Shown in pieces: positions 37,447 to 42,529 of a stretch of 42,529 nucleotides of DNA (its first letter is position 1; every line of letters starts with the position of its first letter). Source of the DNA: Nitrospirota bacterium. Lineage in GTDB: Bacteria; Nitrospirota; Thermodesulfovibrionia; Thermodesulfovibrionales; Dissulfurispiraceae. The stretch covers positions 1 through 42,529 of the forward strand of contig JADFXI010000011.1 in the NCBI GenBank assembly GCA_015233655.1, read 5' to 3'. The position numbers and the translations under genes were made by a program. The notes under the pieces are model-generated. The model ran no database searches. It was not told the origin of the DNA and was given only the letters and a program-made list of their open reading frames with translations.

Positions 37447-38427
37447 CTATGCATCCGGAAATGTCGGACGCGGATACAGACCAGCGGCTTTAAGTATCTC
37501 GGGCATGGCGCTCTCCCATTCTATCGCCTGTATATGAACGCCCCTGACCCCGGGGATTTCGAGCACCTGCTGGATCAGTTCGACCGCGATTTTTATGCCC
37601 TCTGCTTCCTGGGCCGCCTTGGCTTTCTTCTTATCGTCGCCTGCTGCATCCTTCACCTTGGTCATGCGTTCTATTAAAGCCTTCGGCACACTCACACCTG
37701 CTACTGATGCATCCATGTAGCGCAACATCATAGCGGTCCTCGGGACAATGATCCCGCCGAGGATGGCCGTACGCTCATGCAGGCCGAGCTTTCTGACTAT
37801 CTCCATCTGGGACTTGAACATTTCTATGTCGTAGATGCCCTGCGTCTGAATGAAATCAGCGCCTGCATCGACTTTCTTCTTAAGCCGGTGCGGCCGGTAA
37901 TCCATAGGTTCGCCGCCGGGAGTGAAGGCCGCTCCTATAAAAAATTCCGGCGGCACTTCGAGTTTGTCGCCGCCTTCCTGCAATGATTCGTCGCGCATTT
38001 TCTTGAGTATGCCGACAAGCTGTATGGAATCGACATCATAAACGTTCTTTGCGCCGGGGTGCCCTTTGAGCTTGCCTGCTGAGCTGAAAGACTGGTGATC
38101 GCCCGCTATACAGAGACAGTTCTTTATCCCCAGTGCGGCAGCGCCCAGAAGATCGGCTTGCATGGCTATACGATTGCGGTCCCTGCAGGTCATCTGCATA
38201 ACAGGCTCAAGGCCTTCTTTCAGGGCCAAATAAGCGGCGGCTATACTCGAAATGCGCACCACCGCTGTCTGGCAATCGGTGATGTTAGCCGCATCGCAAT
38301 AGCCTTTAAGAAGATTGGCCTTCTTTATAACTTCATGTGGATCTGCACTCATCGGAGGGCCTAATTCAGCCGTTACTGCCGGTTTTCCGCTAGCGATGAC
38401 TTTTTCGAGATTGCTTCCACTCTTCAT
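37447..38427 (-). CDS. metF: methylenetetrahydrofolate reductase, MetF family
   Basis: A 326-residue flavoprotein of the MetF family that reduces methylene- to methyl-tetrahydrofolate. TAELGPPMSADP at 19-30 carries the active-site Glu (E21). MTCRDRNRIAMQADLLGAAA and CLCIAGDHQ form the FAD-binding region, and FIQTQGIYD the later barrel motif. The family usually spans about 290-320 residues. It lies 18 nt downstream of metV, with hdrA and mvhD upstream, which is the layout of Wood-Ljungdahl methyl-branch enzymes rather than methionine biosynthesis. Confidence 0.9.
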   Translation of the reverse strand: MKSGSNLEKVIASGKPAVTAELGPPMSADPHEVIKKANLLKGYCDAANITDCQTAVVRISSIAAAYLALKEGLEPVMQMTCRDRNRIAMQADLLGAAALGIKNCLCIAGDHQSFSSAGKLKGHPGAKNVYDVDSIQLVGILKKMRDESLQEGGDKLEVPPEFFIGAAFTPGGEPMDYRPHRLKKKVDAGADFIQTQGIYDIEMFKSQMEIVRKLGLHERTAILGGIIVPRTAMMLRYMDASVAGVSVPKALIERMTKVKDAAGDDKKKAKAAQEAEGIKIAVELIQQVLEIPGVRGVHIQAIEWESAMPEILKAAGLYPRPTFPDA

Positions 38428-38445: not shown

Positions 38446-39144
38446 CTAGGATTCTTTCTTTACGTTCTCGTCTTCGAGGTCTTTAATATGTTCGAGCACC
38501 ACCCTGCGCGGCCCTCCATGAGTTCCGCAGGCCCAGTTCCGCGGCGGTTGTATTTCGTACAGTTTCTCAAGGGTGCCGAGCTGCTTCATCCGCTCCACTA
38601 TCAAGAACCAGCCGCAATCGACTTCCTGGCTGATCTCGCATTTTCCTTTATTGGTGCCGCCGCACGGCCCGTTCATAAGTGATTTCGAGCATCGCGCAAC
38701 AGGACAAATTCCCCCTGTAAGGTGAAGTATGCAGTTGCCGCATCCGGCGCAGAGTTCAGTAAAAACACCGGCCTGGGGCACAGCGCCGAAAAACTCGGTA
38801 TTGATGCCGGGGTATACGGGAATATTGCCTATCCTTTCAGACAGGAAATTAACGCCTACGCCACACGCAGTTGATAACACCAGGTCATAGGTCTTGACCT
38901 CTTCCATAAGAGGCTCAAAAAATTCGGGCTCGCAATGCCTTTCAATCCCTGCGTGCTTTACTTCCATCTCCACCTGCTCTTCTGCAGCCTTTATCCGGAT
39001 CATAGATGCAAGTATCTCAGCCTCTTTGCTCCCTCCGGCATGGCAGATAGCAACGCAAGTATTACAGCCAAATACAAGCACTCTTTTAAAACCCTTGACC
39101 ATGTCCCATATTTCATCAAAAGGCTTCTGTTCGCCTACAATCAT
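38446..39144 (-). CDS. metV: MetV, methylene-THF reductase C-terminal (MTHFR_C) protein
   Basis: A 232-residue protein of the MTHFR_C/MetV type. FGCNTCVAICHAGG near 25-38 gives C27, C30 and C34; a second Cys cluster (CAGCGNC, then CPVARCSKSLMNGPCGG and GKC) should hold Fe-S centres. MetV is the small partner of MetF in acetogens and related bacteria, passing electrons to the MetF flavin. Its ATG overlaps the true stop of mvhD (ATGA at 39144-39141), which also supports read-through of the mvhD TGA. Confidence 0.9.
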   Translation of the reverse strand: MIVGEQKPFDEIWDMVKGFKRVLVFGCNTCVAICHAGGSKEAEILASMIRIKAAEEQVEMEVKHAGIERHCEPEFFEPLMEEVKTYDLVLSTACGVGVNFLSERIGNIPVYPGINTEFFGAVPQAGVFTELCAGCGNCILHLTGGICPVARCSKSLMNGPCGGTNKGKCEISQEVDCGWFLIVERMKQLGTLEKLYEIQPPRNWACGTHGGPRRVVLEHIKDLEDENVKKES

Positions 39145-39659
39145 TGCTGCTCACTCCTTTCTGACCCATCCGGTTTGCAGACTCCAAACCAGACAGGGGA
39201 TGGTCCGAGTGCGCGGATTCTCGCGGTAAACTCGGTGCAGATCTCTGCCCACCTGGGACCCATGGCCGCTGACAGGTTGTACATTTGCAAACGCGTGGGA
39301 TCAATGCCCAATTTTGACAATATCTTTTTTAGGTACTCGATGCGCCGTGCTGCATAAGCATTACCTTCCAGGTAATGACATTGGCCCTTTAGTCAACCAG
39401 CGGCAAAGACGCCGTCCACCCCCCGTTCAAAGGCCCTGAGCACATAGATGTGGTCAAGCTTCCCTGTACAGGGAAGGCGGATTACCTTAACATTCGACGG
39501 GTAGGAAAGACGCATGACACCGGCAAGGTCAGCTGCTGCGAATGCACAATAATGACAGGCAAAAGCCAGGATATTCGGCTCCCAGCCTTCCGGTATCTCG
39601 CGGGGCTTTTCGATCGATGAGCGGGGCTCAGGTGTGGCTGTCTCCGCGAGTTTGTCCAT
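39141..39659 (-). CDS. mvhD: MvhD-family iron-sulfur subunit, selenoprotein (Sec at 39393-39395)
   Basis: MvhD hands electrons between an NADH dehydrogenase or hydrogenase and HdrA. The first 88 residues have C35, C38 and C64 (PCTGKLD). Codon 89 is TGA where the family has Cys (GC....CHY). The same frame then reads LKGQCHYLEGNAYAARRIEY and on through LSAAMGPRWAEICTEFTARI to WFGVCKPDGSE, ending at TGA 39141-39143, overlapping metV. The total is 172 residues, a normal MvhD length. No other base change is needed, so TGA is read as selenocysteine; a SECIS-like hairpin lies just after it. GAGGAGG precedes the ATG. If the TGA were a true stop, the protein would lose half its conserved domain. Confidence 0.88.
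39359..39377 (-). promoter_or_regulatory. putative bacterial SECIS element in mvhD
   Basis: On the minus strand, CATTACC-TGGAA-GGTAATG forms a perfect 7-bp stem with a 5-nt loop. The loop starts 22 nt after the TGA, and its second base is G. This agrees with the bacterial SECIS rules (loop 16-37 nt from UGA, G within the first two loop bases). It would recruit SelB to insert selenocysteine. Confidence 0.8.
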
Positions 39660-39678: not shown

Positions 39679-42529
39679 TTAACCGCCTACTACCCCTGCC
39701 TCGCACTCCACTGCTGCATCAATCATGGCCAACACCTGATCATCGCGGAAGTTGTTGACCTGAAATGCCTTGGCAGGACAAATGCCGGCGCAGATACCGC
39801 AACCCATGCATTTAACTTCATTATGCGCAACCTTGCCGTCTTCGCCGATATATGGCGAATCAAAGGGACATACCCTGAAGCAGCTCAGGCAGGACATGCA
39901 AAGGTCTTTTCTGTGCTTCGCTATAATGCCCGAAACCGCGAGCCTCTCATGCGACAGGATTACGCCTGCGCGTCCTGCGGCAGCCAGGGCCTGCGTAATC
40001 GTTTCGTCCAGGTTTTTTGGAGCATGGGCCAGACCGGCAACGAATATGCCTTCACTCGGAAAGTCGACCGGACGGAGCTTTACGTGCGCCTCAAGGAAGT
40101 ACCCATCCGTATTACGGGTGACTTTATACATCTCTCCAACTTTATCCGTAGTAGGGTGAGGCCTGAGTCCTGTCGAGAGCACTACCCAGTCGGCATCTAT
40201 AAGCAATTCCTTATTAAGCATATAATCCCAGGTCTTGACGTTGAGCCTGCCGCCCGATTGCATCACCTCAGGCTTTCTGTCTACATCATACCGGACAAAA
40301 ATAACCCCGAGGTCACGGGCTTTTCGATAATAATCTTCGCGAAGGCCATACGTGCGGATGTCCCTATAAATTATAAAGACCTGTGCAGAGGGGTCCTTCT
40401 CTTTTATGGCAATAGCGTTTTTGACGGCATCCTGGCAGCATATACGAGAACAGTATTGGGCAGGCTCTTCACGCGAACCGACGCATTGTATCATTACAAA
40501 CCGCTCGCCTGACTTCTGAGCGCCTCCCTCTGCAAGCCTCTTCTCAAGCTCCCGCTGAGTGACCACATGATCACTTTCTTTATAGAGATATTCAGACGGC
40601 TCGTATTCCACGCCGCCGATTGCTAATATGATCGCCCCGTGGTCAAATGCGCTTCCATCAGTAAGCATAGTTTTGAAATTGCCGACAAAGCCCTCGGTTT
40701 TTTTGACCTCGGTACCGGTGTGAACAGTAATCTGCTGGTTAGCCCTGACCTCGGCTATTCGCTCTTTGATAAATGCCTGGACATCATTGCCTTCGAGTGT
40801 GCGCCGGAGGTTGTTGACCAGGCCTCCGAGTTCATTCTCCTTCTCTACTATATGTACCTTAAATCCCTGATTCGCCAATGAGAGGGCCGCAGTCATACCC
40901 GCAACTCCGCCGCCGATTATCATGCATACAGGAGTAACTCCTACTGTCTCGGTCTTGATGGGCTCCTGAAGTCTCGACTTGGCAACCGCCATTTTAACGA
41001 TCTGCTTCGCCTTACGCGTCGCCTCTTCCTTTTGGCCCATGTGGCACCAGGAGCACTGCTCGCGGATGTCGGCAAGATCGAAAAGATATTTGTTCAGCCC
41101 TGCGTCACGGATGGTTTCCTGGAATAGCGGCTCATGTGTTCTGGGGGTGCAGGAGGCAATGACTATCCGGTTCAGGTTATTGTCCTTCACAGTCTGCTTA
41201 ATTACTTCCTGATTGTCCTGGGCGCATGCATAGATAGTATTTGTGGCATAGACGACGCCAGGCAGCTTTTTGGCCACCTCGACAACTTCATCTACTTTAA
41301 CTGTTCCAGCTATATTGGTCCCGCAGTGGCAAACAAATACGCCTATTCTCGGCTCTTCGCCGGTCAAGTCCTTTTCAGGAGGCAATTCTTTTTTTACTGC
41401 TTCCGTTCCTCTGGCCTCTCCCAAGAGTGCCATCGCCTCGCCTGCCACGGCGCTTCCCTGCATTACCGTATCAGGAATGTCCTTCGGCCCCTGGTACGTA
41501 CCTGTGACAAATATCCCTTCCCTGGAGGTCTCGACCGGCTGGAGCGGCGATGTCTTTGCAAAGAGATATTCGTTCGTTTCTATTCCGAATATATTTGCGA
41601 AGGCCTCGGCATCGCTGTGAGGCTGCAGCCCGACTGAAAGCACAACCATATCGAAGGTTTCATCAGCCAGCTTCCCGTCCTCAGTTGCATAGCGCATCAA
41701 GAGGTCTCCTGAGGCAGCGTCTTCCTTGACTGCGGATATCATGGCCCTCTGGTAGCGAACACCGTAGTCGTTCTTGGCACGCTCTACGTATTTGTCGAAG
41801 TCCTTACCGAAAGCCCTCATTTCCATGTAAAAGATAGTGGGCTCTATATTTTTGTCATGCTCTTTGGCAATGATCGACTGTTTGGTCGCGTACATGCAGC
41901 ATACAGATGAGCACCAGGGGTTTGCATTGTGAGGGTCCCTGGAACCGACGCACTGTATCCATGCCACTTTTCTAGGGTGCTTTCCATCGGACGGTCTTTT
42001 TACCTCGCCTTTGTACGGGCCTGATGCCGACAGGATACGCTCAAACTGGACGGAAGTAACCACATTAGGCCAGCGTCCCAGGCCGAGTTCCCCTCTGACT
42101 TTTGCATTGTACCGGTCAAGCCCGGGACCGAGAATAACTGAGCCTACGTTTACTTCTATGTCCCGGCCCTTGTCTTCGTAATTTATCGCCCCGGCCTTAC
42201 ATACCTTTTCGCAGCTGCGGCATACGCCCTTTGTAAGGAACAGGCAGTTCCTGGCGTCGATGGCCCTTGTGTTGGGAACGGCCTGCGGAAAGAGTGAGTA
42301 TATGGCCTTGCGCGTATTGAGTCCCTGGTCAAACTCGCTCGTTATCTTTTTGGGGCACTTTGCTTCGCAATCGGCGCAGCCGGTGCATTTGGCAGGATCT
42401 ACATACCTGGGGGCCAGCCTTATTCGGGCTTTGAAGTTCCCGGCCTCTCCCTCAACAGACAGCACTTCAGCCAGGGTATGAATCTCAATATTCAAGTGCC
42501 TGCCCACTTCCACCATCTTGGGCGAAATC
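39679..42529 (-). CDS. hdrA: HdrA-like double-module flavoprotein, 5' end cut by window
   Basis: At least 945 residues, still open at the window edge (PKMVEVGRH at the start is an internal HdrA motif). Module 1 is the end of an HdrA: CTGCADCEAKCPKK near 44-57, another Cys cluster near 89-106 and CVGSRDPHNANPWCSSVCC. Module 2 (from about residue 388) is a full HdrA: GVFVCHCGTNIAGTV, FAD-binding MIIGGGVAGMTAALSLANQG, a second CVGSREEPAQYCSRICC and two C-terminal 4Fe-4S motifs (CMSCLSCFRVCP, CMGCGICAGICP). HdrA centres flavin-based electron bifurcation. With MvhD, MetV and MetF downstream it likely couples methylene-THF reduction to ferredoxin or NADH. Confidence 0.88.
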   Translation of the reverse strand, partial: ISPKMVEVGRHLNIEIHTLAEVLSVEGEAGNFKARIRLAPRYVDPAKCTGCADCEAKCPKKITSEFDQGLNTRKAIYSLFPQAVPNTRAIDARNCLFLTKGVCRSCEKVCKAGAINYEDKGRDIEVNVGSVILGPGLDRYNAKVRGELGLGRWPNVVTSVQFERILSASGPYKGEVKRPSDGKHPRKVAWIQCVGSRDPHNANPWCSSVCCMYATKQSIIAKEHDKNIEPTIFYMEMRAFGKDFDKYVERAKNDYGVRYQRAMISAVKEDAASGDLLMRYATEDGKLADETFDMVVLSVGLQPHSDAEAFANIFGIETNEYLFAKTSPLQPVETSREGIFVTGTYQGPKDIPDTVMQGSAVAGEAMALLGEARGTEAVKKELPPEKDLTGEEPRIGVFVCHCGTNIAGTVKVDEVVEVAKKLPGVVYATNTIYACAQDNQEVIKQTVKDNNLNRIVIASCTPRTHEPLFQETIRDAGLNKYLFDLADIREQCSWCHMGQKEEATRKAKQIVKMAVAKSRLQEPIKTETVGVTPVCMIIGGGVAGMTAALSLANQGFKVHIVEKENELGGLVNNLRRTLEGNDVQAFIKERIAEVRANQQITVHTGTEVKKTEGFVGNFKTMLTDGSAFDHGAIILAIGGVEYEPSEYLYKESDHVVTQRELEKRLAEGGAQKSGERFVMIQCVGSREEPAQYCSRICCQDAVKNAIAIKEKDPSAQVFIIYRDIRTYGLREDYYRKARDLGVIFVRYDVDRKPEVMQSGGRLNVKTWDYMLNKELLIDADWVVLSTGLRPHPTTDKVGEMYKVTRNTDGYFLEAHVKLRPVDFPSEGIFVAGLAHAPKNLDETITQALAAAGRAGVILSHERLAVSGIIAKHRKDLCMSCLSCFRVCPFDSPYIGEDGKVAHNEVKCMGCGICAGICPAKAFQVNNFRDDQVLAMIDAAVECEAGVVGG

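Follow-up and report, generated by a model that had tools for sequence, protein, structure and literature searches.

The mvhD gene in the window (the whole 42,529-nucleotide stretch of Nitrospirota DNA analysed here) is interrupted by an in-frame TGA, and by far the best reading of this split gene is a selenoprotein gene whose TGA almost certainly specifies selenocysteine and not termination. Support for this reading, already proposed in the initial annotation, came from conservation of the TGA at a Cys column, from a SECIS hairpin that is likewise conserved, and from the tRNA-Sec, SelB and SelD genes of the genome. Taken together, we consider it very probable that mvhD is functional, that SelB and the hairpin direct the decoding of UGA as selenocysteine at residue 89 (Sec89), and that the product is a [2Fe-2S] protein, MvhD, placed between an HdrA-type flavoprotein and MetVF. 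The features concerned are as follows.

37447..38427, minus strand: metF, methylene-tetrahydrofolate reductase (PF02219, E=4.9e-36)
38446..39144, minus strand: metV, overlapping the mvhD stop as ATGA (PF12225, methylene-tetrahydrofolate reductase C terminal, E=3.3e-35)
39141..39659, minus strand: mvhD, predicted 172-residue read-through selenoprotein, stop codon included in the coordinates (translation with TGA=U; FlpD; PDB MvhD/VhuD matches)
39359..39377, minus strand: bacterial SECIS-type hairpin, CATTACCT-GGA-AGGTAATG (stem in relatives but absent in Cys-type genes; pair counts)
39393..39395, minus strand: UGA codon, predicted selenocysteine 89, in an invariant Cys column (TGA in this column of the related loci; Cys in Cys homologues)
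39679..42516, minus strand: HdrA-type flavoprotein, two HdrA-like copies fused in tandem (three stretches matching HdrA2 NF040770)

The mvhD gene and its predicted read-through product

Translation of 39141-39659 on the minus strand with TGA read as U gave a product of 172 residues (MDKLAET...DGVFAAGULKGQCHYLEGN...GSERSEQQ), with U at residue 89, 88 residues before it and 83 after it. The terminator is the TGA at 39143-39141, which overlaps the metV ATG at 39144-39142 as ATGA. This translation confirmed the initial annotation in that both parts lie in one frame and end at a stop overlapping metV; the standard-code ORF list also behaved as described there, with mvhD seen only as an 88-residue stub at 39393-39659. 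The Pfam family FlpD (PF02662) covered the read-through product end to end (profile 1-123 of 123, E=1.7e-47, 160.9 bits against a cut-off of 22.3), and the solved MvhD/VhuD chains 7bkb_F, 9sfi_K and 5odc_D matched it both before and after the TGA (E=3e-40). The alignment to MvhD/VhuD that had been suggested as a check thus runs across the TGA, for the full profile as well as for the PDB chains.

Four Cys columns, at residues 35, 64, 89 and 94, are invariant in the MvhD family, and the protein here has Cys35, Cys64, Sec89 and Cys94 in these positions. The earlier placing of the TGA at a conserved MvhD Cys was therefore correct, the homologues having an invariant Cys at residue 89. Because every homologue checked conserves the four positions, and HdrA-MvhD fusions keep them despite the loss of Cys38, Sec89 is probably a ligand of the [2Fe-2S] cluster or adjoins one.

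Conservation of the in-frame TGA

A contig scan for mvhD relatives kept 80 loci from other genomes, both MAGs and isolates, titled Nitrospirota and Desulfobacterota. The residue-89 column contained TGA in all 80 of them, while Cys 35, 38, 64 and 94 had the usual codons for Cys; such agreement among loci from other genomes excludes chance. One of the cultured relatives, Desulfoprunum benzoelyticum, has the same gene, with AGULEGQCHF around the predicted Sec. The scan pattern over the TGA stretch was back-translated with Cys codons and was thus biased toward Cys versions, though no Cys version was found among the kept loci. Across 396 Nitrospirota genomes, a TGA was present in 27 of 27 matches at 69% identity or higher, and the best uninterrupted match showed 49% identity. 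The next matches, with 49% identity or less, were mostly uninterrupted, and those examined have Cys at the residue-89 position, apart from a few with Sec. From these sequences, the MetVF-linked MvhD subfamily appears to be always Sec, without a Cys isoform.

In two more distant MvhD paralogues (G015:C69 and G028:C1, 42-44% identity), TGA again stands at residue 89, next to Cys-bearing relatives, so that Sec/Cys exchange has taken place here outside the MetVF-linked subfamily.

SECIS-type hairpin

The hairpin starts 15 nt after the TGA and its GGA loop starts 23 nt after the UGA; this loop distance and the G-initial loop fit the bacterial SECIS consensus of Zhang and Gladyshev. In 86 of 87 distinct relatives, an inner stem of at least 6 pairs is unbroken outward from the loop, and within the hairpin His is encoded by CAT and Leu by CTG in 87 of 87. 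At residue 96, Phe (TTC) occurs only together with Gly GGA (52 relatives) and Tyr (TAC) only together with Gly GGT (35 relatives), with no exception, which by its codon pairing is a compensatory change of one base pair. The Tyr/Phe switch splits Nitrospirota from Desulfobacterota almost cleanly, and the compensatory pair, following the phylum boundary so closely, may represent one evolutionary event. The 28 Cys-type MvhD genes compared lack the stem and vary in the corresponding codons. The covariation score in a 28-sequence subset was reached by none of 500 shuffles, and slid pairing controls failed. The folding energy of the window hairpin alone is unexceptional (z from -0.3 to -1.9, with 85 of 5000 codon-preserving shuffles folding as well), so that the SECIS case rests on conservation; an Rfam scan of the window returned no matches. 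Located just 3' of the UGA, the hairpin at 39377-39359 would direct Sec decoding.

A sequencing or assembly error, turning a Cys codon into TGA, was mentioned in the initial annotation as a possible cause of the interruption, and the Cys found at residue 89 of more distant homologues would agree with it. Independent genomes refute it, with TGA in 80/80 separately assembled loci and in 27/27 close matches within the phylum, and we give such an error practically no chance. Equally negligible is a pseudogene, in which a nonsense mutation sits in a decaying mvhD: a standard gene caller does output a truncated stub, but the downstream half is fully conserved in sequence and length, which refutes decay, and it overlaps the metV start. 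A degraded downstream half in related strains, as considered earlier, was not found, this half being conserved across two phyla, and the hairpin shows constraint at synonymous sites.

Selenocysteine machinery and the use of UGA

The source genome assembly (3.29 Mb, 262 contigs, 84% complete) contained tRNA-Sec with anticodon TCA (68 bits), SelB (368 bits, over the cut-off) and SelD (316 bits). SelA was not found in this 84% complete assembly, and the Sec machinery that the initial annotation had suggested looking for in the genome was thus recovered except for this one protein. Neither SelA nor SelB over the cut-off was found in the same-genus G001, another incomplete assembly, and the SelA protein of a relative, used as query with E up to 10, gave no match in either congeneric genome. 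Of the 40 genomes in the group, 37 have SelA, including 34 of 34 near-complete ones, and the three without it are at most 89% complete. In our view, the absence of SelA from both genus assemblies is probably due to incompleteness. In G000:C224, a transposase-like reading frame lies upstream of selB and runs directly up to it near the contig end; it might account for a broken assembly around Sec genes.

The UGA might be decoded in a different way, through a reassigned code or through a suppressor or near-cognate tRNA, with insertion of Cys, Trp or Gly, and the SelA missing from this assembly, as from both congeneric assemblies, speaks for it. However, UGA retains its normal stop function in the window, where 5 of 11 long ORFs sampled end in TGA, the tRNA-Sec, SelB and a Sec-type SelD are present, and all 34 near-complete relatives have SelA; we regard this route as very improbable. 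Sec decoding usually competes with termination, and the 88-residue termination product could itself be functional under selenium shortage, but the stub lacks residue 89 and the strictly conserved Cys94, leaving the usual four-residue cluster site incomplete, and a dual product is hardly to be expected. For the selenoprotein reading, with the gene and its signals in place, SelB and Sec-tRNA(UCA) are predicted to decode the UGA at 39395-39393 as selenocysteine. A codon-usage screen of the window for further TGA read-through genes did not rank mvhD, its positive control.

Gene cluster and probable role of the protein

The gene order in the window is hdrA-mvhD-metV-metF, forming one cluster with no hdrB or hdrC between hdrA and mvhD. 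Chain 5odc_A aligned to residues 1-313, 387-580 and 767-933 of the HdrA-type fusion, and the first HdrA copy of this fusion starts beyond the window end. Among 109 inspected loci, drawn from two collections in which the same genome may occur twice, hdrA was upstream of mvhD in 109, metV downstream in 104, and metF was present in 96. The mvhD product would be the [2Fe-2S] electron-transfer subunit MvhD, and judged from synteny and from the systems of Moorella and Sporomusa, it probably serves the Wood-Ljungdahl pathway by passing electrons between the HdrA-type flavoprotein and MetVF, the methylene-tetrahydrofolate reductase; the pathway may run here toward CO2 fixation or toward acetyl-CoA oxidation. 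By analogy with the same two genera, a physical HdrA-MvhD-MetVF complex and electron bifurcation may be proposed.

Comparison with known systems

Sec-containing MvhD has been described in Desulfobacterium autotrophicum HRM2 with four copies, MvhD1/2/3/5 (PMC2702500), in Desulfococcus multivorans together with a SECIS (PMC5109826), and as VhuD/MvhD in methanococci (PMC2933860, PMC13188914); a 2026 review restricted the occurrence of Sec-containing hydrogenases of the group, MvhD/VhuD included, to sulfate reducers and methanogens (PMC13188914). Bacterial members of the Sec-MvhD family were thus already on record (PMC2702500, PMC5109826), which makes the finding here much less surprising. The precedent in methanogens given by the initial annotation is real, but the nearest one is in sulfate-reducing bacteria, the host here being an uncultured Nitrospirota bacterium. 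The MvhD proteins of D. autotrophicum and D. multivorans resemble the present one in being bacterial, in UGA-encoded Sec, in hdrA association and in bacterial Sec machinery, and differ from it in host phylum and in the clustering with metVF seen here; the Sec position is the same in the Desulfobacterota relatives compared. Methanococcal VhuD belongs to the same MvhD/VhuD family, and the X of 9sfi_K that aligns with residue 89 is a non-standard residue consistent with Sec. A second X in this VhuD-type chain is at the CxxU position (residue 38), where mvhD here has Cys, and the methanococcal system also differs by its archaeal Sec machinery and SECIS and by its partner, the H2/formate heterodisulfide reductase complex.

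The MetVF methylene-tetrahydrofolate reductase of Moorella and Sporomusa has been connected with MvhD and Hdr proteins (PMC9430772; PMC6085437), and a pulldown in Sporomusa ovata showed MetVF interacting with HdrA and MvhD (PMC9430772). The HdrCBA-MvhD-MetVF system of Moorella thermoacetica and S. ovata shares the hdrA, mvhD, metV and metF gene set with the window, but here HdrA is a two-copy fusion and hdrB/hdrC do not lie between hdrA and mvhD. Selenocysteine is not mentioned in the paper on the Moorella/Sporomusa MetVF system (PMC9430772), and Sec-containing MvhD in Nitrospirota was not named in the literature searched, which was covered in part.

Sec-MvhD as such being already published, what is modestly new is the apparently strict Sec of MetVF-linked MvhD, a hint that the redox properties of an Fe-S cluster in carbon fixation or oxidation are influenced by selenium. 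We might tentatively speculate that MetVF-linked MvhD in Nitrospirota and Desulfobacterota is obligately Sec. Selenium would then tune the entry of electrons into methylene-tetrahydrofolate reductase through the [2Fe-2S] cluster, and the Wood-Ljungdahl methyl branch would depend on selenium at a second step, formate dehydrogenase being the first. Automatic annotation stops mvhD at residue 88, and a Wood-Ljungdahl electron-transfer subunit can therefore seem absent or broken in Nitrospirota.

Other genes of the source genome also contain an in-frame TGA. Its SelD (G000:C221:15759-16694) is itself a selenoprotein by sequence, a TGA of its own encoding the U of AAGUAAK. Two formate dehydrogenase alpha genes (G000:C215:2263-4260 and G000:C222) have the TGA at the UHxP site, as UHAP and UHGP, and a third formate dehydrogenase alpha gene on C262 has one TGA inside.
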